12,275 nt of DNA from an uncultured Gemmatimonadota bacterium (GTDB lineage: Bacteria; Gemmatimonadota; Gemmatimonadetes; Gemmatimonadales; GWC2-71-9): the NCBI GenBank assembly GCA_946887295.1, contig CAMPKP010000106.1:1-12275 (forward strand). The letters run 5' to 3'. The notes beneath the pieces are model-generated. The model was not told where the DNA came from, searched no databases, and was given only the letters and a program-made list of their open reading frames with translations. A program made the translations under genes and the position numbers. Positions within the stretch are counted from its first letter, which is position 1. Each line of letters begins with the position of its first letter. Of the stretch, positions 1 through 12,275 are shown piece by piece.

Positions 1-2
1 AG

Positions 3-1034
3 TGGAAGCGGGGCGGCGGCACCACCTGGGGCTGGTACTCCTACGACCCCGAGCTGAACCTCTTCTACTACAGCACCGGCAACCCGGGCAGCTGGAACCC
101 CGATCAGCGCCCGGGCGACAACAAGTGGTCGATGACCATCTTCGCCCGCAACCCGGAGACCGGGATGGCGAAGTGGGCCTATCAGATGACGCCGCACGAC
201 GAGTGGGACTACGATGGCGTCAACGAGAACGTCCTCTTCGAGAGCGGCGGGAAGAAGCTGCTGGCGCACTTCGATCGTAACGGCTTCGGCTATACGCTCG
301 ACCGCACCAACGGCAAGCTGGTCGTGGCCGAGCCCTACGGTCCGGTCAACTGGGCCAAGCGGGTCGATCTGACCACCGGCGTGCCGGAGAAGGATCCCCG
401 GTACGGCACCACCTCGAAGAAGAACACCGAGGGCATCTGCCCCGCGGCGATCGGCTTCAAGGACCAGCAGCCGGCGGCCTACTCGCCGATCACCGGCTAC
501 TTCTACGTGCCGGCGAACCACATCTGCATGGACTACGAGGGTGTGGAAGTGAAGTACACCGCCGGTCAGCCGTACGTCGGCGCGATCGTGCGGATGTTCC
601 CGGGCCCGGGCGGCCACCGCGGCCGGTTCATCGCCTGGGATCCGATGAAGGGCAAGGTCGTCTGGGAGGCCAAGGAGCAGCTGGCGGCCTACGGCGGCGC
701 GCTCACCACGGCCACGGGCCTGGTGTTCTACGGCACCATGGAGGGCTGGCTCAAGGCTCTCGACCAGAAGACCGGCAAGACGCTGTGGCAGTACAAGACC
801 CCGTCGGGCATCATCGGTAACCCGATGACCTACAACGGGCCGGACGGCCAGCAGTACGTCTCCGTCCTCTCCGGCATCGGCGGCTGGGCCGGCATCGGCG
901 TGGCCGCGGGTATCGGCGCTGAGGATCCGACCGCCGGTCTCGGCGCGCTCGGCGCCTTCGGCGACGCCGGCAACTTCAGCACCCAGGGCGGCGTTCTCAC
1001 GGTGTTCGCTCTGAAGAACCTGCCCGTCAAGTAA
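3..1034 (+). CDS. xoxF: XoxF-type lanthanide-dependent PQQ methanol dehydrogenase, C-terminal part
   Basis: Periplasmic quinoprotein that oxidises methanol (and often other short alcohols or formaldehyde), passing electrons from PQQ to a cytochrome c. The 5' end lies outside the window: 343 codons remain of a family usually near 600 residues. Visible residues include the [13 protein letters not shown] segment, STGNP (residues 24-28 of the fragment; its Asn is a metal ligand in the family), RPGDNKW, and [13 protein letters not shown]. In the last, Asp69 (207-209) is the catalytic base and Asp71 (213-215) is the extra Asp that marks lanthanide XoxF; calcium MxaF has Ala there (DFAG). Beta-propeller Trp-docking repeats ([29 protein letters not shown]) and the terminal GGVLTVFAL are typical. 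xoxJ and a xoxG-type cytochrome follow. XoxF identity is near certain; the exact clade cannot be read from this fragment. Confidence 0.95.
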
Positions 1035-1049
1035 GCTGGACACCACGGG

Positions 1050-1072
1050 GGCCGGAGGGATTTCCTCCGGCT
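1050..1072 (+). terminator. Hairpin just after xoxF (no U-tract)
   Basis: Perfect 8-bp stem GCCGGAGG (1051-1058) / CCTCCGGC (1064-1071), loop GATTT, with a possible extra G-U closing pair. It starts 16 nt after the xoxF stop. No T-run follows, so it is not a classical intrinsic terminator. It may protect the 3' end of xoxF mRNA or attenuate readthrough into xoxJ, which would fit the need for far more dehydrogenase than accessory protein. The function is inferred; the stem is seen directly. Confidence 0.5.
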
Positions 1073-1100
1073 CCAGTGGGGGTAGATTACGAGAAGTGCA

Positions 1101-1148
1101 CGGCGCCGATGGTGGGGGCGCGCAGATGCGCCCCCGCCGTCGGCGCCG
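1101..1148 (+). terminator. Very strong 21-bp hairpin between xoxF and xoxJ
   Basis: Arm 1101-1121 pairs with 1128-1148 around a 6-nt loop (GCAGAT). All 21 positions pair in the + strand RNA, two of them as U-G wobbles (1110/1139 and 1113/1136). On the minus strand those would be A-C mismatches, so the fold suits a transcript read in the xox direction. Only CGTTT follows at 1151-1155, so it is a weak candidate for intrinsic termination. It could be an attenuator or an mRNA processing or stability element that splits xoxF from xoxJ-xoxG. It lies in the 187-nt gap, downstream of the smaller hairpin at 1050-1072. Confidence 0.6.
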
Positions 1149-1221
1149 GTCGTTTCACGGAGCTCCGCCTCCCGGGACGGGCCCGGCCGGCGGCTCCCAA
1201 GCTGGATTGGATGGTACCGCT

Positions 1222-2103
1222 ATGCTCCGCTCAAGCGCCGGGCGCGTGGCCCTCGCTTTGCTCGCTGTTTCGGTCCTTCCGGGAAGCCGGGCGGCCGCCC
1301 AGCAGCTGCATACCAACCAGCTGACCCCGGGCGTCCTCAGGATCTGTGCCGATCCCGACGCCATGCCCCTCTCCAGTCAGAAGGCCGAAGGGTACGAGCA
1401 GAAGATCGCGGAGCTGATCGGCAAGGAGTGGAATACCAAAGTGGAATACGCCTGGTGGCCGGTGCGGCGCGGGTACTTCAGCCGCGCGCTGAACGGCCGC
1501 TACTGCGACGTGGCGATCGAGGCGCCCTCCGGGCTCGACATGGCCGGCGTGACCAAGCCCTACTTCCGCTCCGGCTACGTCTTCCTCACCCGGAAGGACA
1601 GCGGCCTCGACATCAAGTCGCTCGCCGACCCGCGGCTCAAGAAGCTGAAGATCGGCGTCAACCTCCTCCACTCGGACGCCGAGAACACCCCGCCCGCCAT
1701 GGCGCTCAGCCGCTACGGCGTGGTCGGCAACCTGACCGGCTACAGCACCTTCTACACCGACGAGGATCGGCCCGAGGACATCGTCGAAGCGGTGGCGAAC
1801 AAGGACGTGGACGTCGCGATCGTGTGGGGCCCGGTGGCCGGGTACTTCGCCAAGAAGTCCCAGGTGCCCCTGGTGCTCACGCCGCTTCCCGAGCGCGACT
1901 CGCTGAGCGACTTCCCGTTCCGGTTCAACATCGCGATGGGTGTGCGCCGGCGGGACCGGGAGCTCCGCGACAGCCTGAACCATTTTCTCGAGCGCAGGCA
2001 GCCCGAGATCCAGGCGATCCTCAAGGAATACAACATCCCGGTGTTCCCGGTCGTCGAGGAAGGCAAGGACGACGACGCTCCGCCGCCCAAGCCCACCGGC
2101 TGA
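1222..2103 (+). CDS. xoxJ: XoxJ: quinoprotein-dehydrogenase-associated periplasmic substrate-binding protein
   Basis: 293-residue periplasmic binding-protein-fold protein of the family found beside PQQ alcohol dehydrogenases (the MxaJ/XoxJ group). It is thought to help mature or activate XoxF rather than feed a transporter. The ATG at 1222 gives a clean signal peptide (MLRSSAGRVALALLAVSVL, cleavage near AAA-QQ). ATGs further upstream in the frame (1096, 1126) would add an Arg-rich leader encoded by the intergenic hairpin and are unlikely. Family features seen: LRICADPDAMPLS near residue 40, the YAWWPVRRGYF block, YCDVAIEAPSGLDM, TKPYFRSGYVFLTRKDSGL, LKIGVNLL, ENTPPAMALSRYG, and DVAIVWGPVAGYFAKKS. 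Cys42 and Cys95 could form a disulfide. No permease or ATPase gene is nearby, which supports an accessory role. Family assignment is secure; the exact function of XoxJ is less settled. Confidence 0.93.
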   Translation: MLRSSAGRVALALLAVSVLPGSRAAAQQLHTNQLTPGVLRICADPDAMPLSSQKAEGYEQKIAELIGKEWNTKVEYAWWPVRRGYFSRALNGRYCDVAIEAPSGLDMAGVTKPYFRSGYVFLTRKDSGLDIKSLADPRLKKLKIGVNLLHSDAENTPPAMALSRYGVVGNLTGYSTFYTDEDRPEDIVEAVANKDVDVAIVWGPVAGYFAKKSQVPLVLTPLPERDSLSDFPFRFNIAMGVRRRDRELRDSLNHFLERRQPEIQAILKEYNIPVFPVVEEGKDDDAPPPKPTG

Positions 2104-2187
2104 CCCGGCCATATCGAATCTGCACCCCACCGCCGGCGCCGCGCTGGCGGATCCCGATCCTTAGGTATGAAAGGACCGTCTGAGAGC

Positions 2188-2628
2188 ATGCGCACACCAC
2201 TCTCCGCCACGCTGCGCCGGCTGGCCGCGGGTGCCGGCGTCCTGATCGCCGCCCTCATGGTCGGCACCCGTGCCGAGGCGCAGGACCTTCGCGACCAGTA
2301 CCATCAGGCGCCGCGCGACACGGTGTCCCAGGAGGTTTACGACGGCTGGAAGCAGTTCAATCTGAATTGTGCCCGCTGCCACGGCGAAGACGTGCTGGGG
2401 ACGACCATCGCTCCCCACCTCATTCTTTCCCTGAAGCCGGACGGCCCCATCAATACCAAGGAGGCGTTTCTCCAGGTGGTCTGTGCCGGCCGGCCTGAGA
2501 AGGGGATGCCTTCCTGGTGCGCGCTCGGCATGGATCCCGGCACCATCGAGAAGATCTACACCTACGTGAAGGCCCGAAGCGACGCCAAGATGTCGCCTGG
2601 GCGCCCGGCCCGAAAAGCCGAGGGCTGA
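2188..2628 (+). CDS. xoxG: XoxG-type cytochrome c, electron acceptor of XoxF
   Basis: Small exported class I cytochrome c, presumably the periplasmic acceptor for electrons from XoxF. The ATG at 2188 gives a 146-residue product with a signal peptide ending near AEAQ (residue 32). An in-frame ATG at 2167 would add MKGPSES; neither start has an ideal ribosome site (AAAGGA lies 13 nt before 2188). Heme attachment is CARCH at residues 61-65, and the likely axial Met is Met107 in the KGMPSW stretch. Two further cysteines, Cys99 and Cys111, flank that Met and could form a disulfide; four-Cys cytochromes of this kind occur in methanol-oxidation clusters. It lies 84 nt after xoxJ and ends 6 nt before a strong terminator, so it closes the first operon. 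Assignment to XoxG rests on context plus this pattern; sequence divergence from proteobacterial XoxG is likely. Confidence 0.85.
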   Translation: MRTPLSATLRRLAAGAGVLIAALMVGTRAEAQDLRDQYHQAPRDTVSQEVYDGWKQFNLNCARCHGEDVLGTTIAPHLILSLKPDGPINTKEAFLQVVCAGRPEKGMPSWCALGMDPGTIEKIYTYVKARSDAKMSPGRPARKAEG

Positions 2629-2634
2629 AGACAA

Positions 2635-2666
2635 GGGGGGCCGCGGGTCGGCCCCCCTTTCTCTTT
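2635..2666 (+). terminator. Rho-independent terminator after the xoxG-type gene
   Basis: Perfect 8-bp stem GGGGGGCC (2635-2642) / GGCCCCCC (2650-2657), 7-nt loop, then a pyrimidine tail TTTCTCTTT (2658-2666). It begins 6 nt after the cytochrome stop codon and separates the xox core from the pentapeptide/propeller gene run. Confidence 0.88.
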
Positions 2667-2817
2667 GCCCCGCCGGTCCGACGCCGGGGTGACACCGAGC
2701 TTCCACGGCCGTATTGGATCGCATGGCCAAGCGGCCGGAGGGCGGATATGTTCCCAAAACGACCCCGCCACGTCTCGGCGGGAGTAGTGTGTGTACGCCG
2801 CCACCGGTGAGGGCACG

Positions 2818-3624
2818 ATGGGGACTGGAATCATCGCGGGGCTCTGGATGGTCGGGATCCTTCGCTCGATCGCGCCGATGGCCGCGGACACCCCAGGCGT
2901 CCGACTCGATGCGGCCGGGTTGGCCCGGCGCCTGGCCGCCGCCCCCGAGGCCGATCTGTCCGGAGTGGACCTCAGTGGCCTGGACCTGACGGGAGTGGAC
3001 TTCAAGCGGGCGAATCTCACCGGGGCGAAGCTCGCGGGAGCCCGGCTGGGGGGTGCCAACCTCTTCAGCTGTGACCTCACCGACGCGGTGGCGACCGACG
3101 CGGTGCTCACCAAGGCGAACATGGACGGCACCGTGCTGCGCCGCGCCGACTTCCGGCGGGCCGACATGGAGGGCGCCAGCCTCTTTGCCACCATCCTCGA
3201 GAAGGCCAATCTGGCCGGCGCGAACCTCGCGGGTATCCGTCTCATCGGGTACCTCAGGAGCGCCAATCTCGGGGGCGCCAGCCTCAGGAACGCCAACGCC
3301 GGCGCCGATCCGGGCAACCAATCCATGGGCGTCATGCGCGCGACCTTCGTCGGCGCGGACCTCACCGGAGCGGACCTGAGTGGCGCCAACCTCTACAAGG
3401 CCGATTTCTCACATGCGACCCTGGCCGGCGCGAAGCTTCAGGGGGCGAATCTCGAGAACGCCGACCTGGTGCAGACCGACTTCACCAGGGCCGACCTCAC
3501 CGGTGCCCGCCTGGCGAAGGCGAACATCGAGGGGGCCATCTTCGTCGGCGCCACGGGTATCGCGCGTATTCAGGGCCTCGACCAGGCCCGTAACAGGGAC
3601 AAGGCGATCTTCGATGACAAATGA
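2818..3624 (+). CDS. Exported pentapeptide-repeat protein
   Basis: 268 residues. The ATG at 2818 is preceded by GGTGAGGG five nt upstream and gives a signal peptide (hydrophobic MGTGIIAGLWMVGIL, cleavage near PMAA-D, residue 23); a GTG at 2791 is in frame but less likely. From about residue 45 nearly the whole chain is built of A(D/N)LxG-type pentapeptides (ADLSG, VDLSG, ANLTG, AKLAG, ADFRR, ANLAG and so on), predicted to fold as a right-handed quadrilateral beta-helix. The run breaks once at about residues 150-185 (a Gly/Asn-rich stretch with NAGADPGNQSMG). No catalytic domain is visible; such proteins are usually binding or structural scaffolds. It overlaps the propeller gene by 11 nt, so the two are probably made together. 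A role in methanol oxidation is suggested only by position. Confidence 0.88.
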   Translation: MGTGIIAGLWMVGILRSIAPMAADTPGVRLDAAGLARRLAAAPEADLSGVDLSGLDLTGVDFKRANLTGAKLAGARLGGANLFSCDLTDAVATDAVLTKANMDGTVLRRADFRRADMEGASLFATILEKANLAGANLAGIRLIGYLRSANLGGASLRNANAGADPGNQSMGVMRATFVGADLTGADLSGANLYKADFSHATLAGAKLQGANLENADLVQTDFTRADLTGARLAKANIEGAIFVGATGIARIQGLDQARNRDKAIFDDK

Positions 3625-4714
3625 CCACGCACGATCGGCGTTGACCGTTCTTCTCGCCCTGCTGAGCGGCGCGGGCCTCACCGCATGCGGAGGGGACACG
3701 GGCCGCTCCGGGGGCGCTGCCGGGGATTCCGCGTCCGCCGCCTCCGACACCCCGGCGGGCGAGCTCGCGTACGTGAGCAACGAGGGGTCGGGCGAGGTCA
3801 CCATCCTCGACACCTCGACCGATAGCGTGGTCGGGAGCATCCCCGTCGGCACCCGCCCCCGGGGCATCCGGCTCAGCGACGATGGACGAACGGTGTTCGT
3901 GGCGCTCAGCGGCTCGCCCCGCTGCCCACCCACGATGCCCGACGAGGAATGCGAGAAGCTCAAGGCCGACAAGAGCAAGGACGGCATCGGGGTGATCGAC
4001 GTCGCCAGCCGGAAGGTGACCAAGGTGCTGCCGGGCGGCTCCGATCCGGAAACGTTCGACATCAGCAAGGACGGCACCCGGCTCTTCGTCTCCAACGAGG
4101 ACGCCAACACCGCCACCATCGTGGACATCGAGAGCGGGAAGATCCTGAAGACCGTACCGGTGGGTCGGGAGCCGGAGGGCGTGGAGCTCCACCCGAGCGG
4201 CGAGACCGTGTGGGTGACCGGCGAGACCGATCACGACGTCACCGTGCTCGACACCGACAGCGGGACGGTGATCACCAGGATCACGGTCGGCGACCGGCCC
4301 CGGGACCTGGCGTTCACCGCCGATGGCAGCCGCGCCTACGTCAGCTCGGAGACCGGCGGTACCGTTTCGGTGGTGGACGCGAAGGGCTACAAGGTCCTCA
4401 GGACCTTGAAGATGCCGGAGGGCTCGAAGCCGATGGGGGTGGAGCTGTCGCCGGACCAGAAGCGGCTGTACGTGGCGAACGGGCGCGGCGGAACGGTGTC
4501 GGTGGTGGACGTCGCCAACGATTCGATCATCGCCAGCGTGGAGGTGGGCGTCCGTCCCTGGGGCATCGCGCTCACCAGCGACGGCCGGAAGCTCTACACC
4601 GCCAACGGCCCGTCGAACGACGTCACCGTGGTGGATACCGAGTCCATGAAAGTGCTCAAGAAGATCCCCGTGGGCGAGCTCCCCTGGGGAGTCGTGGTCG
4701 GCCGGGCTCCGTGA
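3614..4714 (+). CDS. Seven-bladed YVTN beta-propeller lipoprotein
   Basis: 366 residues. The ATG at 3614 lies inside the end of the pentapeptide gene, with AAGGCGA seven nt upstream. The N-terminus is a lipoprotein signal ending in the lipobox LTAC (Cys25), so the protein is likely membrane-anchored and periplasmic. Seven YVTN-type blades can be counted (from YVSNEGSGEVTILDT through LYTANGPSNDVTVVDT), each with a D-x-VP(V)G-x-x-P-x-G(I/V) edge. This matches the beta-propeller family linked to PQQ-dependent catabolism. Blade 2 holds a charged insertion with two cysteines (Cys104, Cys113) that could close a small loop. The stop codon overlaps the GTG of the next gene (GTGA). A scaffold or binding role around the dehydrogenase is plausible; no enzymatic residues are visible. 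Confidence 0.9.
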   Translation: MTNDHARSALTVLLALLSGAGLTACGGDTGRSGGAAGDSASAASDTPAGELAYVSNEGSGEVTILDTSTDSVVGSIPVGTRPRGIRLSDDGRTVFVALSGSPRCPPTMPDEECEKLKADKSKDGIGVIDVASRKVTKVLPGGSDPETFDISKDGTRLFVSNEDANTATIVDIESGKILKTVPVGREPEGVELHPSGETVWVTGETDHDVTVLDTDSGTVITRITVGDRPRDLAFTADGSRAYVSSETGGTVSVVDAKGYKVLRTLKMPEGSKPMGVELSPDQKRLYVANGRGGTVSVVDVANDSIIASVEVGVRPWGIALTSDGRKLYTANGPSNDVTVVDTESMKVLKKIPVGELPWGVVVGRAP

Positions 4715-5190
4715 TCCGGTCCCTGGCGCTCGCGGTGGCGCTCCTGGCCGCTGGGGCGAGCCGGGCACCACTGGCCTTCCGCTTCGAGCCCGATGCCCAG
4801 GCCGAGCTCCGCCGGCTCTGGGTCACGAGCAGCGACGCCAAGGCCGAGCGGGTGGCCTGCCTGGCGGGCCAGATCCGCGGCGACACGGTCAGCGTCACAC
4901 GCATCCTTCCACTCACGGGCTGGGCGGACTCGCTCACCGCCTCGGCGCGGCAGTCGCTGGAAGCCTGCGCCCCGCCTCGCTGGCAGGGCACGGTGCACAC
5001 CCACGTCGCGCTGCGCGACGGGGCCCGCCCCTACGCCCGGTTCTCGGGGGCGGACCGCGGGGTGAACCAGATATGGTGGCGCCGCTGGAAGGCCGATGGC
5101 ATGTTCTGCGTCCTGTTCTCCGCGACCGACGCCTACTGCGAGATCGACGGCCCGAAGGGCGTGGCGATCTTCCCCCGCTCCGCCTACTGA
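4711..5190 (+). CDS. Exported JAMM/MPN-like putative metalloprotease, copy 1
   Basis: 159 residues from a GTG start that overlaps the propeller stop (GTGA), implying coupled translation. A short signal peptide (IRSLALAVALLAAGAS) indicates export. The body reads like a compact JAB/MPN domain: Glu46 in AERVACLAG, a strand-turn-strand with GDTVSVTRILPL, then His96-Thr-His98 in GTVHTHVAL, and Ser112-Gly-Ala-Asp115. This is the JAMM order Glu ... His-x-His ... Ser-x-x-Asp, with 50 residues from Glu to the first His as in known members. The His-to-Ser loop is about six residues longer than usual, and the Pro normally after the second His is Val. Cys50, Cys86, Cys133 and Cys143 are all kept in the next gene, fitting two disulfides in the periplasm. 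The metal-protease reading is inferred from the motif; the protein could be an inactive relative. Confidence 0.68.
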   Translation: MIRSLALAVALLAAGASRAPLAFRFEPDAQAELRRLWVTSSDAKAERVACLAGQIRGDTVSVTRILPLTGWADSLTASARQSLEACAPPRWQGTVHTHVALRDGARPYARFSGADRGVNQIWWRRWKADGMFCVLFSATDAYCEIDGPKGVAIFPRSAY

Positions 5191-5198
5191 TCCGCGGC

Positions 5199-5702
5199 GT
5201 GCGCGCGGCTCTCGCCGGATGGCTCGCCCCCGTTGCGCTCTGCGCCACGGCCGGTGCCCAGAGCGCCGGGCCGGGGGCCGGCTTCCGGTTCAGCCCCGAC
5301 GCGGGCGCGAGCCTGCAGCTGCTGTGGAAGGAGAGCGTCGCGGCACGGCAGGAGCGGGTGGCCTGCCTCGAGGCGGACATCCGGGGCGACACGGTCTTCG
5401 TGAACCGGATTCTTCCGCTGCGGCCCGATGCAGCCGACTCGATGGGGATCTCCGCCACCGCGTCGATCGAGCGGTGCGGCCCGCCCGAATGGGATGGCAC
5501 CGTACACACCCACGTCGCGCTCTACACCGACGACAGCCCTTCGCGGCGCTTCTCGGGACAGGATCGCACCGTGATGCGGATGTGGTACGATCGATGGCGT
5601 TCCGACGGAGTATTCTGCATCGCCTACAGCGAGCGGAGCGCGCACTGTGAGGCCGACGGGGTCGTCGGCGGCATGCGCTCGCGACCCCGCATCGTTCGCT
5701 GA
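5199..5702 (+). CDS. Exported JAMM/MPN-like putative metalloprotease, copy 2
   Basis: 167 residues, a tandem paralogue of the gene before it. The GTG at 5199 gives a signal peptide with cleavage near AGAQ (residue 21); CTG (5187) is an alternative just upstream, and the gap to the previous stop is 8 nt. Shared blocks include ERVACL, RGDTV, RILPL, GTVHTHVAL, FSGxDR, the Trp-rich helix before DGxFC, and a final Cys-Glu. The proposed metal and catalytic residues are Glu52, His103, His105, Ser119 and Asp122, with the same His-to-Ser-to-Asp spacing as copy 1. Cys56, Cys93, Cys140 and Cys150 match the four cysteines of copy 1. Retention of every motif residue in two clearly diverged copies argues for a working site. 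Substrate unknown. Confidence 0.68.
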   Translation: MRAALAGWLAPVALCATAGAQSAGPGAGFRFSPDAGASLQLLWKESVAARQERVACLEADIRGDTVFVNRILPLRPDAADSMGISATASIERCGPPEWDGTVHTHVALYTDDSPSRRFSGQDRTVMRMWYDRWRSDGVFCIAYSERSAHCEADGVVGGMRSRPRIVR

Positions 5703-5725
5703 CCGCCCAGACCCGGACCGACTTC

Positions 5726-7729
5726 ATGCCGCTTCGCTACCTGGCTCTCGCCGCCACGCTCGCCGCTCCGCTCGATCCCCCCGACACCGAGAACGCGCCG
5801 TTCTGGACCGGCCACCCGGACGCCGCGGCGTTCGAGCGCGCGCTGGAGGGCCGGCTGGCGCGGGCGCGGATGATCATCGAGCGGCTGGTGACGGTGGCCG
5901 GACAGCGGACGGTGGCGAACACCCTGGCCCCCTACGATCACCTCATGCGGGAGCTGGACCGGGCGGGGAGCGAGGCCGAGCTCATCCGGAGCGTCCACCC
6001 CGATTCCACCCTGCGGCAGGCGGCGGAGCGGGGCGGCCGGAAGGTTTCGGCGCTCGCGACGGAGATCTCGCTCGACCGGCGGGTCTTCGAGGCCATCGAG
6101 GCGCTGGACGTGAAGGAGGCGGATCCCGTCACCCGACACTACGTGAGCCGCATCCTGCGCGACTTCCGGCTCTCCGGCGTGGACCGGGACCCGGCGACCC
6201 GTGCGCGGATCCGCGCACTGCGCGACGAGCTGGTGCTGATCGGCCAGGAGTTCGACCGCAACATCCGTGAGGACGTCCGCCGGATCGACGCCGCCTCGGC
6301 GGCCGAGCTCGACGGACTGCCCCCGGACTTCGTCGCGGCGCATCCGCCGGGCCCCGATGGGCAGGTTCAGCTCACGACCGACTACACGGATGTCATCCCG
6401 GTGCTCACCTACGCCCGCAGCGACGACCTGCGCCGGCGGGTTCGCGCCGAGTTCGACAACCGGGCGTATCCCCGGAACATGGCGGTGCTGGACCGGATGA
6501 TCGCCAGACGCGACGAGCTGGCCCGCCTGCTCGGCTTCGCATCCTGGGCCGACTACGCGCTCGCCGACAAGATGGTGGGCTCGGCGGCCAACGCGTCCGC
6601 CTTCATCGACCGGATCGTGGAGGCGTCGAAGGACGCGGCGGAGCGGGAGTATCAGACCCTCCTGCGGCGAAAGCAGCAGGATCACCCGGGCGCCACCGGG
6701 ATCGACCGGTGGGAGACGGCATACCTCCGGGAGCTGGTCCGCCGCTCGGAGTACGATTTCGACTCGCAGCAGGTGCGGCCCTACTTCCCCTACGAGCAGG
6801 TGAAGCAGGGTGTCCTCGACGTCGCGGCACGGCTCTTCGGGGTGACCTTCCGGCAGATGCAGGACGCGCCGGTCTGGCATCCCTCCGTCGAGGGCTGGGA
6901 GATGCTGGAGGGCGACCGCCTGGTCGGCCGCTTCTACCTCGACATGCACCCCCGGCCCGGGAAGTACGGCCATGCGGCGCACTTCCGGGTCCGCACCGGC
7001 ACCACCGACGGCGCGCTTCCCGAGTCGGCGCTGGTCTGCAACTTTCCCGGCGGCACGCCGGGCGAGCCGGGTCTCATGGATCACGGCGACGTCGAGACCT
7101 TCCTCCACGAATTCGGCCACCTGATGCACTCGCTCCTGGCGCGCCAGCGCTGGAGCGGGGTCAGCGGCGTCCGGACCGAGTGGGACTTCGTGGAGGCCCC
7201 GTCGCAGATGCTGGAGGAGTGGGGCTGGGATCCCGAGGTGCTGGCGACCTTCGCGCGGCACCACGAAACGGGCGAGCGGATTCCGGCCGCGCTGGTCCGC
7301 CGCCTCAGGCGGGCGACCGAGTTCGGCCGGGCACTCGACATGCGCACCCAGATGACGTACGCCAGGATCTCGCTGTCGCTCTACGATCGCCCGCCGGCGC
7401 AGGTGGACACGGACTCGATCGTCTCCGCGGTGACCCGCGCCTACACGCCCGTGCCGCCGATGGCGGGCACGCACATGCAGGCGTCGTTTACCCATCTCAA
7501 CGGGTATTCGGCGTACTACTACACCTACATGTGGTCGCTGGTGATCGCGAAGGACCTGTTCAGCCGGTTCGACCGTTCGGACCTGCTGGCCCCGGAGCCC
7601 GCCCGCCGCTACCGGGAGCTGATCCTGGAGCGGGGCGGCTCGGCGCCGGCGGCGATGCTTGTGGAGGACTTTCTGGGGCGGCCCTTCAGCTTCGACGCCT
7701 GGCGGAGCTGGCTGGAGACGGGGAGCTGA
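5726..7729 (+). CDS. M3-family zinc oligopeptidase, probably exported
   Basis: 667 residues, the normal size for thimet oligopeptidase / oligopeptidase A-type enzymes, which cut short peptides inside a deep closed channel. The zinc site is complete: His461-Glu462-Phe-Gly-His465 (HEFGHLMH) and the third ligand Glu490 in DFVEAPSQMLEEW, 29 residues after His461 as in thimet oligopeptidase. The C-terminal YYYTYMWSLVIAKDLF block, which shapes the substrate pocket in M3A enzymes, is present. The ATG at 5726 opens with MPLRYLALAATLAAP, which looks like a short signal peptide, so a periplasmic location is likely; most characterised M3A enzymes are cytosolic. It lies 23 nt after the second JAMM-like gene and may be the last member of that run, giving three neighbouring metallopeptidase genes. 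The family call is firm. Confidence 0.93.
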   Translation: MPLRYLALAATLAAPLDPPDTENAPFWTGHPDAAAFERALEGRLARARMIIERLVTVAGQRTVANTLAPYDHLMRELDRAGSEAELIRSVHPDSTLRQAAERGGRKVSALATEISLDRRVFEAIEALDVKEADPVTRHYVSRILRDFRLSGVDRDPATRARIRALRDELVLIGQEFDRNIREDVRRIDAASAAELDGLPPDFVAAHPPGPDGQVQLTTDYTDVIPVLTYARSDDLRRRVRAEFDNRAYPRNMAVLDRMIARRDELARLLGFASWADYALADKMVGSAANASAFIDRIVEASKDAAEREYQTLLRRKQQDHPGATGIDRWETAYLRELVRRSEYDFDSQQVRPYFPYEQVKQGVLDVAARLFGVTFRQMQDAPVWHPSVEGWEMLEGDRLVGRFYLDMHPRPGKYGHAAHFRVRTGTTDGALPESALVCNFPGGTPGEPGLMDHGDVETFLHEFGHLMHSLLARQRWSGVSGVRTEWDFVEAPSQMLEEWGWDPEVLATFARHHETGERIPAALVRRLRRATEFGRALDMRTQMTYARISLSLYDRPPAQVDTDSIVSAVTRAYTPVPPMAGTHMQASFTHLNGYSAYYYTYMWSLVIAKDLFSRFDRSDLLAPEPARRYRELILERGGSAPAAMLVEDFLGRPFSFDAWRSWLETGS

Positions 7730-7746
7730 GCGGCGGCGCTCAGCTC
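7723..7746. terminator. Perfect inverted repeat shared by two converging gene ends
   Basis: GAGCTGAGC (7723-7731) and GCTCAGCTC (7738-7746) form a perfect 9-bp stem with a 6-nt GC loop. The TGA stop of the M3 peptidase (7727-7729) lies in the left arm, and the stop of the DoxX gene (7740-7742, minus strand) lies in the right arm. It could act in both directions; no T-run follows on either strand, so intrinsic termination is uncertain. Confidence 0.5.
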
Positions 7747-8318
7747 AGGGGGCGGCGTGCGAGCGCGGAGCCCGGTCTTCGGGCCGCGATGCGCCGGTCG
7801 AGGCCCCAGACCCGTCCGGCCCGTGCCATGAAGAACGCCAGCATGAGTGCGAAGAGCACCAGGTGGAACCCCTGCTGCCCGGGCGACATCCACTGCGTGG
7901 CCAGACCGTAGTTGGTGACCAGCACCAGTCCGATTGCCGAGGCGACCCCCGTCAGCAGCCCCAGCGTCAGTCCGATCCCCACCGCGGTTTCCCCCCAGGC
8001 TGTGAGCTGGGCGAACAACTCGGGATGGGTGAGCACCGTGCCCTCGAGAAACTGCTTGTAGGCGGAGATCGGGTTCTCGGACGCCTGCTTGGCCACGATG
8101 TTCGGCATCACGTTCACCCAGCGCTCCGAGACCGCCGGCAGCGGCAGGAACCCGCCCACGAAGACGACGCTCATCTTCGTGATGAGCGACTTCACGAAGT
8201 AGAGTCCCACCACGATGCGCAGGAAGGCCAGCCATCGGTCCGGGTGCACCATGGTGATCGAGGAGCGGTTGCCAGCGGCCATGAGACTGTCTCCGTAGTT
8301 GTCGGCGGCTCGAGTCAT
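7740..8318 (-). CDS. DoxX-family integral membrane protein
   Basis: 192 residues with four predicted membrane helices at about 29-47, 101-121, 124-141 and 150-166, and a larger polar stretch (about 55-98) between the first two. The HPDRWLAFLRIVVGLYF opening and the WGETAVGIGLTLGLLT segment with its buried Glu are typical of DoxX/DoxD-like proteins. Some of these serve thiosulfate:quinone oxidoreductases or redox and oxidative-stress complexes, while most have no known role. The ATG at 8318 has GGAGG nine nt upstream and lies 4 nt after the prolyl oligopeptidase stop, so it is the last gene of the minus-strand operon. The first selenoprotein gene of the same operon also suggests redox work, but this is only context. 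Confidence 0.85.
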   Translation of the reverse strand: MTRAADNYGDSLMAAGNRSSITMVHPDRWLAFLRIVVGLYFVKSLITKMSVVFVGGFLPLPAVSERWVNVMPNIVAKQASENPISAYKQFLEGTVLTHPELFAQLTAWGETAVGIGLTLGLLTGVASAIGLVLVTNYGLATQWMSPGQQGFHLVLFALMLAFFMARAGRVWGLDRRIAARRPGSALARRPLS

Positions 8319-8322
8319 GGGG

Positions 8323-10362
8323 TCAAACCTCCACCCCTAACTCCGAAAACACAAACGCCCACGTATCGGTCAGCTCCTCGAGCACCTTGTTGAGCGGCTT
8401 GCCGGCTCCGTGCCCCGCGCGGGACTCGAGCCGGAGCAGGATCGGGCGGGAAGAGGACGTCGCCGCCTGAAGCCGGGCCGTCATCTTCCGGGCGTGCATC
8501 GGATCCACCCTCGTGTCGCTCTCCGCGGTCGCCAGGAGGACGGCGGGATAGGCCACGCCGTCGCGCACGTGATGGTAGGGACTGTACGCCCTGAGCCACG
8601 GGAACTGGGCGGGGTCCTCGGCCGAGCCGTACTCCGGAATCCAGAGTCGCGCGATGAGAAAGCGGTGGTAGCGCAGCATGTCGAGCAGCGGCACCTGAAT
8701 CACGACGGCGCGGAACAACTCGGGACGCTGGGTCAGCACCGCGCCCATCAGGAGTCCGCCGTTGGACCCGCCCGCCGCCGCGAGCCGGGCCGGGCCGGTG
8801 TATCGGTTCTCGATCAGCCATTCCGCCGCGGCGATGAAGTCGTCGAAGCTGTTCTGCTTCCGGCCGAGCATTCCCTCCTGGTGCCAGCCCTCCCCGTACT
8901 CGCCGCCGCCCCGAATGTTCGGGACGGCGACCACCCCGCCCCGTTCCAGCCACAGCAGCAGCGAGCGCGAGAACGCCGGAGTCATGCTGATGTTGAAGCC
9001 GCCGTACGCCGTCAGGTAGACCGGGTTGTTCCCGTCCAGCGCGAGGCCGGCGCGGTGCACCAGGAACATCGACACCTGGGTTCCGTCCTTCGACCGGACC
9101 GACACCTGGTTCACCTCGAAGCGCGACGGGTCCACGTCGGTCTCCACCTGGCGCCACAGCTCTTCGGCGCCGGTGTCGAGGTCGATCCGGTGCACACCGG
9201 GCGGGACCGTGTACGACGAGAATCCGTAGAACAGCTCCCGGCCGTCCCACTCCGCCCCGGCGCCGAAGAGGCTGCCCAACGTGGGCAGCCGGATCTCGCG
9301 CGGGTTCCGCCCCTCGTGATCGGTCAGCCGCAGTCTGGACGAGGCCCGCTCCAGGTAGCTCAGCGCGAGATGATCGGCCGTGACACGCACCCCCTCGAGC
9401 ACCGCGTCGGGCCGGGGCGGCACGATCTCCCGCCATTCCTCCCTGGCGGGGCGCTCCGGATCCACCGCGTACAGCCGGTAGGTCGGGGCGTCCAGGTTGG
9501 TGCGCATGAAGAGACGCCCGTGCGCCACCTCGCCCTCGAACGAGGCGGGCAGGTCCTTGGCGACCGGCACCAGCGGCGCTCCGGTCCGCAGGTCCTGGAG
9601 GTAGAGGTCGGTCTGGTCGAAGGTGCGGGCCACGCCGATCACCAGCCAGCGCCCGTCGGGAGAGATGCCGACGCTGGGCCAGTGCTCCTTCTCGGCGGGC
9701 TGGAAGACCAGCGGGTCTTCCGAGGAATCCGTTCCCAGGCGATGGAACCGTATCGCGCGGTGATAGTGCTCCTCGCCGGGAGGCGTGTCGCCCGGAGCCG
9801 GGTAGCGGGTGTAGTAGAATCCCGATCCATCGGGGAGCCACGCGAGATCGGCCGCCCGGGTGTGAGGAATGCGATCGGCCAGGTTACTGCCCGTGTCCAC
9901 CTCGAGCACCTGGAGCACGCTCTGCTCGCTGCCGTTCTCCGAGAGGCCGTATGCCAGCAGGCGGCCGTCGTCGCTCGGATAGTACCAGTCGAGGGCGATC
10001 GTGCCGGACGGATCGAGCAGGTTGGGGTCGACGAGCGCACGGTCCTCGCCGTGCACGCCCTCGCGCACGTAGAGTACCGGCTGGTTCTGCCGGCCGTCCC
10101 GGCGCTGGTAGAAGTAGCGGCCCCGCGCCGGGGTCGGGACGCTGATCGCCCCGATGGCGAGCAGCTCGTCGAGCCGCCGGTGGATCTCGGCACGGCCGGG
10201 CGCCGCGTCGAGGTACGCCCGGGTGAGGGCGTTCTGAGCCTCGGTCCACTCCCGTGTGGCGGCGCGCTCCCCATCCTCGAGCCAGCGGTAGGGGTCCGGG
10301 ATGGTCTCGCCGTGAAGCGTCTCGGCGTCGTCTGAGACGGGGGTGGGAGGGTACTTGAGCAT
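8323..10362 (-). CDS. Prolyl oligopeptidase, S9A family
   Basis: 679-residue serine peptidase that cuts short peptides after proline. The N-terminal block (YPPTPVSDDAETLHG ... DPYRWLED) and a beta-propeller middle region precede a C-terminal alpha/beta-hydrolase domain. The triad can be placed: Ser533 in GGSNGG, Asp616 in ESDTRVDP, His651 in RAGHGAGKP. Spacing is close to that of the pig enzyme (Ser554, Asp641, His680). No signal peptide is visible with the ATG at 10362, so it is probably cytosolic. It lies 30 nt after phosphofructokinase without a clear ribosome site and 4 nt before doxX. All active-site residues are present and the length is normal for the family. Confidence 0.95.
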   Translation of the reverse strand: MLKYPPTPVSDDAETLHGETIPDPYRWLEDGERAATREWTEAQNALTRAYLDAAPGRAEIHRRLDELLAIGAISVPTPARGRYFYQRRDGRQNQPVLYVREGVHGEDRALVDPNLLDPSGTIALDWYYPSDDGRLLAYGLSENGSEQSVLQVLEVDTGSNLADRIPHTRAADLAWLPDGSGFYYTRYPAPGDTPPGEEHYHRAIRFHRLGTDSSEDPLVFQPAEKEHWPSVGISPDGRWLVIGVARTFDQTDLYLQDLRTGAPLVPVAKDLPASFEGEVAHGRLFMRTNLDAPTYRLYAVDPERPAREEWREIVPPRPDAVLEGVRVTADHLALSYLERASSRLRLTDHEGRNPREIRLPTLGSLFGAGAEWDGRELFYGFSSYTVPPGVHRIDLDTGAEELWRQVETDVDPSRFEVNQVSVRSKDGTQVSMFLVHRAGLALDGNNPVYLTAYGGFNISMTPAFSRSLLLWLERGGVVAVPNIRGGGEYGEGWHQEGMLGRKQNSFDDFIAAAEWLIENRYTGPARLAAAGGSNGGLLMGAVLTQRPELFRAVVIQVPLLDMLRYHRFLIARLWIPEYGSAEDPAQFPWLRAYSPYHHVRDGVAYPAVLLATAESDTRVDPMHARKMTARLQAATSSSRPILLRLESRAGHGAGKPLNKVLEELTDTWAFVFSELGVEV

Positions 10363-10392: not shown

Positions 10393-11475
10393 TCAGTCTC
10401 CCAGGGCGATCCCCAGCTCCCGCGCGGTCGCGACGATGTCGCCGTCCAGCGGGACGTTCTTGGCCCGGCCGACCACGTCCGCCAGCGGGACCCGGGTGAT
10501 GTCCGGCCCGTTGAGCCCCACCATGGTGCCGAAGGCACGGTCGGCGATGGCCCGCACCGCGGCGCCGCCGAACCGGAGCGCCAGCAGCCGGTCGTAGGTG
10601 GTCGGCGAGCCGCCGCGTTGCAGATGGCCGAGGACCAGCGTGCGGGTCTCCTTGCCGGTCCTCAGCTCGATGGCGCGTGCCACCTTGCTCGCGATGCCGC
10701 CGAGCCGGTCCACCGTGCCGACGCCGCGCCGCTCGACCAGCTCGATCGCCCCGTCGCGCGGACGGGCGCCTTCCGCGACGACGACGATGCTGAAGCGTCG
10801 CCCCGCGGCCTCGCGGGCCCGGATCTTCTCGCACACCTTCTCGATGTCGAAGGGGATCTCCGGCAGGAGGATGACGTCGGCGCTGCCCGAGAGGCCGCTG
10901 TAGAGCGCGATCCATCCGGCGTACCGCCCCATCACCTCGACCACCATCACCCGGTCGTGGCTCTCCGCGGTGGAGTGCACCTTGTCGAGCGCCTCGGTCG
11001 CCGTGCTGACCGCGGTGTCGAACCCGAACGTGCGCTGGGTGCCGCTCACGTCGTTGTCGATGGTCTTGGGCACGCAGACGACCGGCAGGCCCTTGCACCA
11101 GAGCTGGTGGGAGATCTGGAGGCTTCCGTCGCCGCCGATCGAGATCAGCGCGTCGAAGCCGCTCGCCTGGAAGGCGGCCACGAGGTCGTCGGAGCGATCG
11201 ATCTCGGACTCGTTCCCATCGGCGTCCCGCATCACGTAGCGGAAGGGGTTTCCGCGATTGGTGGTCCCCAGGATCGTGCCGCCGAGGTGGGTGATGCCGC
11301 GCACTTCCGGGGGCCCGAGCGGAACCACGCCGTTGAACGACAGCAGCCCCTCGTAGCCCCGCTGGATTCCGTACGACTTCCAGCCGCGGTGGTGGGCCGA
11401 CAGGACGACCGCGCGGATCACGGCATTCAGACCCGGCGCGTCGCCCCCGCCGGTCGAGATGGCGATTCTCAGCAC
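10393..11475 (-). CDS. pfkA: 6-phosphofructokinase
   Basis: 360-residue glycolytic enzyme that phosphorylates fructose 6-phosphate at C1. Motifs run in the expected order: STGGGDAPGLNA (residues 7-18), GGTILGTTNRGNPF, IGGDGS (113-118), PKTIDNDVSGT (136-146, catalytic Asp140), MGRYAGWIA, PEIPFD, VLGHLQRGGSPTTYDR. Gly117 matches E. coli Gly104, which favours ATP over pyrophosphate, while Lys137 matches position 124, where pyrophosphate enzymes have Lys and E. coli has Gly. The Gly/Lys mixture is known among ATP-using members of the non-E. coli branches, so ATP is the better guess. The start is GTG at 11475, and it overlaps the stop of the upstream selenoprotein gene (GTGCTGA), so translation is coupled. 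Confidence 0.95.
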   Translation of the reverse strand: MLRIAISTGGGDAPGLNAVIRAVVLSAHHRGWKSYGIQRGYEGLLSFNGVVPLGPPEVRGITHLGGTILGTTNRGNPFRYVMRDADGNESEIDRSDDLVAAFQASGFDALISIGGDGSLQISHQLWCKGLPVVCVPKTIDNDVSGTQRTFGFDTAVSTATEALDKVHSTAESHDRVMVVEVMGRYAGWIALYSGLSGSADVILLPEIPFDIEKVCEKIRAREAAGRRFSIVVVAEGARPRDGAIELVERRGVGTVDRLGGIASKVARAIELRTGKETRTLVLGHLQRGGSPTTYDRLLALRFGGAAVRAIADRAFGTMVGLNGPDITRVPLADVVGRAKNVPLDGDIVATARELGIALGD

Positions 11476-11699
11476 CCTGCCTCGCGTATCAGTCTCACGA
11501 CCTCCCCCGGCGCAGCATGCCTTCGCAGCTCCTTCTTGGAGAAGACGAGGTCACCATCCACCTTCACCTCGAAGACCCCGCCGGAGGATGGGAGGAGACG
11601 GATCTCCGCGTCCGGAAATGCTTCCTTCAGCTCGGCCGCCAGACCGGTGGCCCGTGGCTCGTAGTTTCAGACGACGCAGTACTGGATCGAGATGCGCAT
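11469..11699 (-). CDS. selW: SelW/Rdx-family selenoprotein with in-frame TGA (Sec)
   Basis: 76 residues if the TGA at 11667-11669 is read as selenocysteine. The protein opens MRISIQYCVV, then Sec11, then NYEPRATGLAAELKEAF, and ends at TGA 11469-11471. The Cys8-x-x-Sec11 pair lies exactly at the thioredoxin-like CxxC/CxxU site of the SelW/SelT/SelH (Rdx) family, and the rest of the family pattern follows in the same frame: a LLPSSGGVFEVKVDG strand, LVFSKKE, and APGEVVRLIREAG. Size and fold order match SelW. The ATG at 11699 has AAGGAAG about five nt upstream and a promoter-like element further up. The stop overlaps the phosphofructokinase GTG. A thiol/selenol redox role is inferred from the family. 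A nonsense mutation is the alternative, but its exact placement at the redox residue makes that unlikely. The selenocysteine machinery (selA, selB, selC) is not in the window. Confidence 0.85.
11633..11669 (-). promoter_or_regulatory. Sec codon and candidate bacterial SECIS hairpin
   Basis: After the UGA (11667-11669) there are 19 nt before a 6-nt apical loop CCGGUC (11642-11647). The loop is closed by GCCA/UGGC (11648-11651 with 11638-11641) and, past a 2-nt bulge, by CGG/CCG (11652-11654 with 11633-11635). A short stem about this far from UGA with GGUC in the loop resembles the E. coli fdhF element, whose loop is AGGUCU. The pairings are seen; the SECIS function is inferred. Alternative weaker folds with a 3-nt loop also exist. 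Confidence 0.55.
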
Positions 11700-11734
11700 G
11701 TCGCTTCCTTCGCGTTCGGGAGGTGCCGCCGCGA

Positions 11735-11763
11735 ATCGTAGCGGTCCCGGGGGGTGAAGCCAA
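11735..11763 (-). promoter_or_regulatory. Candidate sigma70-type promoter of the selW-pfk-prolyl oligopeptidase-doxX operon
   Basis: On the minus strand, TTGGCT (11758-11763) and TACGAT (11735-11740) are separated by exactly 17 nt. Transcription would begin near 11727, leaving about 28 nt of leader containing the AAGGAAG ribosome site of the selenoprotein gene. This is the only convincing start signal upstream of the four minus-strand genes. Base matches are moderate. Confidence 0.45.
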
Positions 11764-11791
11764 GAGGGACGGACCGTTGTGACGAGGCTCC

Positions 11792-11820
11792 TTGTCAGTC
11801 CCCACCTGGCGGCGTATCTA
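11792..11820 (+). promoter_or_regulatory. Candidate promoter of the outer-membrane protein gene, possibly leaderless
   Basis: TTGTCA (11792-11797) and TATCTA (11815-11820) with a 17-nt spacer. A start about seven nt beyond would fall at 11827-11828, directly before the ATG at 11829, and no purine-rich ribosome site lies between. The mRNA may therefore be leaderless. The -10 match is only partial. It is divergent to the selenoprotein operon promoter. Confidence 0.4.
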
Positions 11821-11828
11821 TTTGATCC

Positions 11829-12275
11829 ATGCGAACCTACCGGCATAACTCCCGCGGCCTGCCCCGGGGGCTTCGGCCCCTGTGTGCTCTGGCCTTGCTC
11901 CTCACGACCGGGTCGGCGCTCGAGGCGCAGCAGCGCCGGTTCCTGGTCGAGCTCAGTGCCGCTCCCGCCTACCAGTCGTTCGACGAGGCGACGAAGCTGA
12001 AGGGCGCCGTCGGAGGCGTCGGACGCATCGGAGTATGGCTTCCCTACCATTTCTCGGTCGAGGCGGAAGGCCTGTTCACCAGCTCCGACACCAAGGACAC
12101 CGGGGTCGGGGTCGGCACCAGAACGTTCGCCGCTTCGGTCCTGTACAACATTCCCGTGGGAGGCGACAGCTGGGCGCACCTGAGACTGGGGGGTGGATCG
12201 AGCAAGTTCGGCGATCCCTGTCCGACCAACGTCTCGTCGACCGTCATCTGCGGCAGCAGCGGGGCGCTGGTGGGC
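11829..12275 (+). CDS. Secreted, probable outer-membrane beta-barrel protein (N-terminal part)
   Basis: 149 codons are visible and the frame stays open to the window edge. The ATG at 11829 gives a signal peptide with a long basic start (MRTYRHNSRGLPRGLRPL), a hydrophobic core (CALALLLTTGSA) and cleavage near LEAQ-Q. The mature part alternates polar and hydrophobic residues as in barrel strands: FLVELSAAPAYQSF, GVGRIGVWLPYHFSVEAEGLF, TRTFAASVLYNIPV, AHLRLGGGSSKFG. This resembles the N-terminal barrel of OmpA-like proteins. Two cysteines (in DPCPTN and VICGSS) probably pair in an outer loop. Whether a C-terminal peptidoglycan-binding OmpA domain follows cannot be seen. Confidence 0.75.
   Translation, partial: MRTYRHNSRGLPRGLRPLCALALLLTTGSALEAQQRRFLVELSAAPAYQSFDEATKLKGAVGGVGRIGVWLPYHFSVEAEGLFTSSDTKDTGVGVGTRTFAASVLYNIPVGGDSWAHLRLGGGSSKFGDPCPTNVSSTVICGSSGALVG

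Follow-up and report, generated by a model that had tools for sequence, protein, structure and literature searches.

SelW-like (SELENOW-like) proteins are a predicted family of prokaryotic selenoproteins, and the main text of PMC13188914 describes the functions of these and similar bacterial selenoproteins as largely uncharacterized and aerobic bacteria as rarely keeping selenoproteins (PMC13188914). A table in PMC1794560 gives 10 for the family, and few or no Cys homologs are noted there for users of selenocysteine (Sec). Clustering of a SelW-like gene with another gene has been described, in the same main text, for peroxiredoxin/SELENOW-like operons in metagenomes, the partner there being another selenoprotein oxidoreductase (PMC13188914). 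The DNA analyzed here (the window, a stretch of 12,275 nucleotides from an uncultured Gemmatimonadota bacterium) likewise carries a SelW-like gene (selW) beside another gene, but the partner codes for a phosphofructokinase (pfk). The window gene shares with the described SelW-like bacterial selenoproteins the PF10262 family, the CxxU motif and a putative SECIS after the UGA, and adds to this known family. A term search of the main texts of PMC13188914 and PMC1794560 gave 0 occurrences of Gemmatimonad* and of phosphofructokinase, and a literature search by title and start of abstract, mostly outside subscription journals, returned no Gemmatimonadota selenoprotein set, selW-pfk pair or phage selenoprotein. 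The interest of the locus is carried by the selW-pfk gene pair and by copies of selW in phages.

A SelW-like gene with an in-frame TGA

The features of the locus, all on the minus strand, are the following.

11469..11699, minus strand: selW/Rdx coding sequence, 76 residues plus stop, with the putative Sec as residue 11
11676..11678, minus strand: Cys8, first redox position of CxxU
11667..11669, minus strand: in-frame TGA, presumed selenocysteine codon, second redox position of CVVU (Cys-Val-Val-Sec)
11634..11652, minus strand: putative bacterial SECIS hairpin, loop GGUCU at 11645-11641, stem of seven positions with one A.C mismatch
10393..11475, minus strand: phosphofructokinase gene, GTG start at 11475-11473 (Pfam PFK, E=2.3e-103; NCBIfam TIGR02483), its start overlapping the selW stop by 7 nt
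8323..10362, minus strand: prolyl oligopeptidase (S9), 30 nt after pfk, likely in the same operon
7740..8318, minus strand: DoxX/DoxD-family membrane protein, 4 nt after the S9 peptidase, likely in the same operon

The standard code reads only a stub here, with an ATG at 11699-11697, ten codons and the TGA at 11669-11667, as the sequence-only reading had reported. It had also claimed that read-through gives a full SelW/Rdx protein with the TGA at the second redox position and an open frame up to a stop overlapping the pfk start, and both claims held. Beyond the TGA, 65 open codons lead to the stop TGA at 11471-11469, inside the 7-nt overlap. With TGA written as U, the translation is MRISIQYCVVUNYEPRATGLAAELKEAFPDAEIRLLPSSGGVFEVKVDGDLVFSKKELRRHAAPGEVVRLIREAGC, with the CxxU/CxxC motif near the N terminus as CVVU at residues 8 to 11. 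A purine-rich AAGGAAG (11704..11710, minus strand), 4 nt upstream of the ATG, is what we take to be a possible ribosome-binding site.

The protein aligns end to end with Pfam Rdx PF10262 (79 bits, E=3.2e-22, profile positions 1-74 of 74) and also passes NCBIfam TIGR02174 and NF041051, “SelT/SelW/SelH family (seleno)protein” (102.6 bits against a cut-off of 88); this family match is not due to chance. The label of the latter model, SelTWH_Campy, presumably points to Campylobacterota, but the host of the window gene is a member of the Gemmatimonadota. Among solved Rdx proteins, 2fa8 (Atu0228; E=3.4e-11), 3dex and 2npb (selenoprotein W; a weak match, E=0.0055) are sequence relatives, and 2fa8 has C where the window protein would have Sec. 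Cys8 and residue 11 (Sec written as C) are invariant across a 22-row alignment. Altogether, we regard it as very likely that 11469..11699 is a bacterial SelW-like selenoprotein gene with UGA decoded as selenocysteine.

Conservation of the TGA and the selenocysteine machinery

Two sets of genomes, with some members in common, were used for comparison. A scan with one genome per species gave at least 403 confirmed relatives, and the best 80 were taken as genome loci, 68 of them from genomes titled Gemmatimonad*. The second set (the phylum sample) consisted of 200 Gemmatimonadota genomes drawn around G002. The sequence-only reading had suggested looking for Cys or Sec at residue 11, and this is what the relatives have: TGA stands at the CxxU position in all of the best 80 of the at least 403 relatives, and neither TAA nor TAG occurs there. 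In the phylum sample, a SelW match was found in 101 of the 200 genomes, with TGA in 98 of the best copies and TGC in three. Counting two second copies as well (103 loci), there are 98 TGA, four TGC (G158, G087, G219 and the second copy of G106) and one second copy with an unassigned motif.

Searches for selA, selB, selD and tRNA-Sec had likewise been proposed, and among relatives the four occur together, in G002 and in G039, a metagenome-assembled Gemmatimonadota genome whose record is a single 5.5-Mb chromosome. G001 and G002 (loci L001 and L002) are the two nearest relatives of the window by pfk (94% identical). ARAGORN calls the tRNA-Sec of G002 with anticodon tca; in G001, selA and selB are over the cut-off and tRNA-Sec and selD below it, which may reflect draft gaps. 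No tRNA was found in the window itself, and we infer the Sec machinery of its organism from these relatives. Among the 40 genomes of L001 to L040 (40 of the 80 best loci), selB was over the cut-off in 35, tRNA-Sec in 31 (all scores at least 66 bits, the cut-off being 47), selA in 33 and selD in 38; the corresponding figures for 14 well-known control genomes were two, five, one and two. As a separate observation, of the 38 genomes with selD over the cut-off, 27 have a single TGA in frame within that gene. Among the 11 genomes without it, four are partial matches; G002, G004, G005 and G011, the nearest to the window (pfk 88 to 94% identical), have no such TGA.

Across the phylum sample, selA was over the cut-off in 151 and selB in 150 of the 200 genomes (149 for selB when rebuilt from E-values). 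The patchy distribution assumed in the sequence-only reading is thus not what we see, the Sec trait being that of the majority. The mostly uncultured Gemmatimonadota appear as a strong Sec user, with about three quarters of 200 genomes having selA or selB over the cut-off. Nearly all genomes with a TGA-containing selW (97/98) have selA or selB; 86 have both and 11 a single one (five without selA, six without selB). Conversely, 42 of the 200 have neither gene, and only one of these, G150, carries a TGA-containing selW (Fisher p=2e-13); a weak selA match (E=2.7e-14) is present in G150. Since another 61 genomes have selA or selB and no TGA-containing selW, this protein is not the sole reason to keep the Sec trait. 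Two genomes without selA and selB carry selW with a Cys codon. In one of them, G158 (locus L185), the Cys-codon gene is in the usual place and overlaps pfk by 4 nt. Such a natural Cys variant in a genome lacking the machinery is the strongest single reason to read the TGA as Sec. The third TGC best copy, in G219, belongs to a distant family member in a genome with both selA and selB.

A covarying hairpin downstream of the UGA

The SECIS of Escherichia coli fdhF is a hairpin located soon after the UGA with a GGUCU-type loop, and the window has a similar element. We counted the stem as seven pairs beginning 14 nt after the UGA in 84 sequences (80 genome loci, three phage contigs and the window), 81 of them distinct. 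Over the distinct rows, 92.6% of the cells are paired, and two-sided changes are seen in 39 cells versus 8.9 in shuffles, a value reached by none of 500. These changes involve five of the seven pairs (matched by 3/500 shuffles), and for four of five covariation measures no shuffle out of 500 was as high, in a test whose shuffles ignore relatedness among rows. When the partner was slid by one to three columns as a control, pairing went down to 20-59%. Part of the conservation of the hairpin is protein-driven, since it shares the coding frame.

The sequence-only reading had called for a SECIS prediction, and the outcome is divided, with a hairpin that covaries across relatives and an imperfect copy in the window. 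According to the main text of PMC13188914, bacterial SECIS elements have a loop of 3-9 nt with a G in the first two loop positions, lie 16-37 nt from the UGA and have a minimum free energy (MFE) of at most -7.5, with an upper stem of 4-16 bp as a further constraint (PMC13188914). Folded alone, the window hairpin has a 5-nt GGUCU loop at 21 nt from the UGA and -9.5 kcal/mol, inside the ranges for loop size, loop G, distance and MFE. Its upper stem consists of 2 bp, an A.C mismatch (third pair below the loop) and 4 bp. At the position of this mismatch, 17 of the 81 rows are unpaired. Counted over the stem, rows that fail to pair number 17 each at 22-32 and at 18-36, and seven at 19-35. The mismatch seems to be tolerated, because it is common to close relatives of the window, and L023, L044 and L045 have A-U at that pair. 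In a 54-nt fold of the window, a competing structure is 2.9 kcal/mol better, and the hairpin has a pairing probability of about 6%. An Rfam search of 11450-11850 gave no match at E up to 5.

The mechanism that we propose is that the hairpin just downstream of UGA 11669-11667 would recruit SelB carrying Sec-tRNA-Sec, so that selenocysteine would be inserted and termination avoided. The product would be a thioredoxin-fold protein, as predicted from the family, with a Cys-Val-Val-Sec redox center that presumably acts as a redox-active selenol/thiol pair.

Association of selW with phosphofructokinase

In the window, selW probably heads an operon in which pfk comes next. The pair is widespread: pfk lies directly downstream of and co-directional with selW for 73 of the 101 best copies in the phylum sample (73 of 103 loci). 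No pfk match was found in the other 30 loci, 28 of which have 1.5-3.0 kb of downstream sequence, the remaining two being second copies. Among the best 80 of the at least 403 loci, pfk follows selW in 59 (in L029, one of these, as an in-frame run-on) and is divergent in L049. The other 20 lack pfk; all 11 loci from other phyla are among them, and for three of these 11 there is little sequence downstream. The order pfk, S9 peptidase and DoxX is retained in L001, L002, L004, L005, L016 and L044. No SelW remnant was found around pfk in 40 genomes without SelW. Conservation of the pair suggests that the two genes are regulated together or have a joint function, and it is a genetic lead to a possible function of bacterial SelW. 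Because selW is probably first in an operon with pfk, its product most likely serves thiol/selenol redox chemistry tied to central carbon metabolism, and we would expect a thiol reductase or a peroxide-sensing role.

A more direct link, in which SelW acts on a dedicated cysteine of the phosphofructokinase, found no support when 103 distinct enzymes from SelW loci were compared with 40 from SelW-less genomes. Cys215 (window numbering) is present in 96 of the former and is not SelW-specific, since 34 of the 40 latter also have it. Other sites differ in frequency (SelW loci versus SelW-less): residue 34, 29 versus 2; residue 277, 25 versus 4; residue 134, 21 versus 3; and residue 317, 3 versus 10. 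In L029 (6001-7167), the selW frame continues in frame into a pfk without about its first 49 residues, likely by a deletion or an assembly join and not as a true fusion.

The spacing between the two genes varies. Among the 73 linked loci, 31 overlap (by exactly 7 nt in 18 of them), 11 are separated by 0-20 nt, 30 by 21-100 nt and one by more than 100 nt. Translational coupling as a universal rule was therefore rejected, 42 of the 73 having no overlap. Where the pfk start does overlap the selW stop, one can imagine a selenium-gated glycolytic operon in which ribosomes would get to pfk and re-initiate there efficiently only after Sec insertion at UGA 11, phosphofructokinase output would track selenium supply, and SelW might in turn adjust the enzyme or its redox state. 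We consider this gating unlikely, because of the 42 nonoverlapping loci and because a possible ribosome-binding site for pfk itself, judged from the sequence, lies inside selW. Much less probable still is that the UGA is a regulatory or leaky stop that mostly terminates, with the short peptide or the fate of the ribosome regulating pfk and a main product made without selenium. The overlap with pfk in the window and the partial inefficiency of Sec insertion in general would suit such a stop, but the protein after the UGA is strongly constrained, the SECIS covaries and a Cys form appears where selA and selB are missing, all of which speak against it.

Integrity of the frame among relatives

Database entries agree with the sequence-only reading that the TGA hides this gene. 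The protein search found 409 relatives, and 111 of the 120 listed (within P0011-P0121) are pieces of 53-67 amino acids starting after the TGA position; these clipped entries fit gene callers being halted by the TGA, and annotation often clips selW. Among the nine full-length listed relatives, residue 11 is C in four, W in four (P0002, P0004, P0005 and P0006) and R in one (P0003).

It is highly improbable that the gene is dead and its TGA the product of a nonsense mutation or a sequencing error. A dead gene would account for the 10-codon stub of the standard code, and damage is indeed visible in individual relatives: of the 98 copies with TGA, two fall short of an intact family member, G063 going off frame after about residue 50 and G052 lacking about 25 residues. 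However, the TGA is at the same place in the 80 best loci and in 98 of the 103 of the phylum sample (sets that partly share genomes), a frame of 71-90 codons, with the Sec codon as sense, is kept in 101 of these 103 loci, and changes after the TGA in 73 relatives number 929, 639 and 1785 at codon positions 1, 2 and 3, a clear third-position excess. The random spread of stops and frameshifts that the sequence-only reading had named as evidence against itself was not seen, the extra stops counted in the selW of G018, G079 and G078 being terminal ones. Two copies deserve a separate mention. In L200 (G052), the middle of the protein (about 25 residues) is gone, and the TGA and a 7-nt pfk overlap are retained. 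The second copy of G032, at about nt 641 of L198, is distantly SelW-like and has two TGAs in frame (UxxU, in YUAEUEY); it may be a variant with two Sec residues or a copy in decay.

A genome-wide reading of TGA as tryptophan (code 4 or 25), to which the four W entries would point, is the least credible alternative: these are best explained by gene callers using such a code, whereas TGA is a normal stop in the window, since 11 of its 12 listed frames, selW among them, end in TGA, the position has TGC in the four loci named above, and TGA-containing selW co-occurs with selA/selB.

selW in phage contigs

Selenocysteine decoding of selW may extend to viruses. Searches of IMG/VR viral contigs returned three and then 11 contigs with selW (L241-L251, the first three included), for example at L244:8001-8231 and L241:8001-8231. 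These contigs of uncultured phages code for seven distinct proteins, and all 11 have the TGA at the same place. Neighboring genes, annotated with PHROGs, include an endolysin (L082), PhoH, ThyX and Hsp20 (L083), a DnaB helicase (L248) and a baseplate wedge protein (L244). The SECIS-like stem is rebuilt in A+T-richer letters, with a mismatch in L244 and L245, and in five of the 11 the 54-nt fold does not reach the -7.5 kcal/mol limit. One phage-type SelW query at E up to 1e-3 found no match in 50,697 phage records, and no tRNA-Sec was over the cut-off in three of the contigs, which are fragments. Phage selW is a candidate phage-encoded selenoprotein that, if expressed, would be a selenoprotein of a virus made via the recoding system of its host.

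Other genes of the window

Two adjacent frames, 4699-5190 and 5184-5702, are similar in sequence and have no Pfam match; they are possibly a tandem duplicate of an uncharacterized protein. Pfam matches within positions 1-7729 comprise the end of a PQQ dehydrogenase, a solute-binding protein, a cytochrome c, pentapeptide repeats, a beta-propeller and an M3 peptidase.
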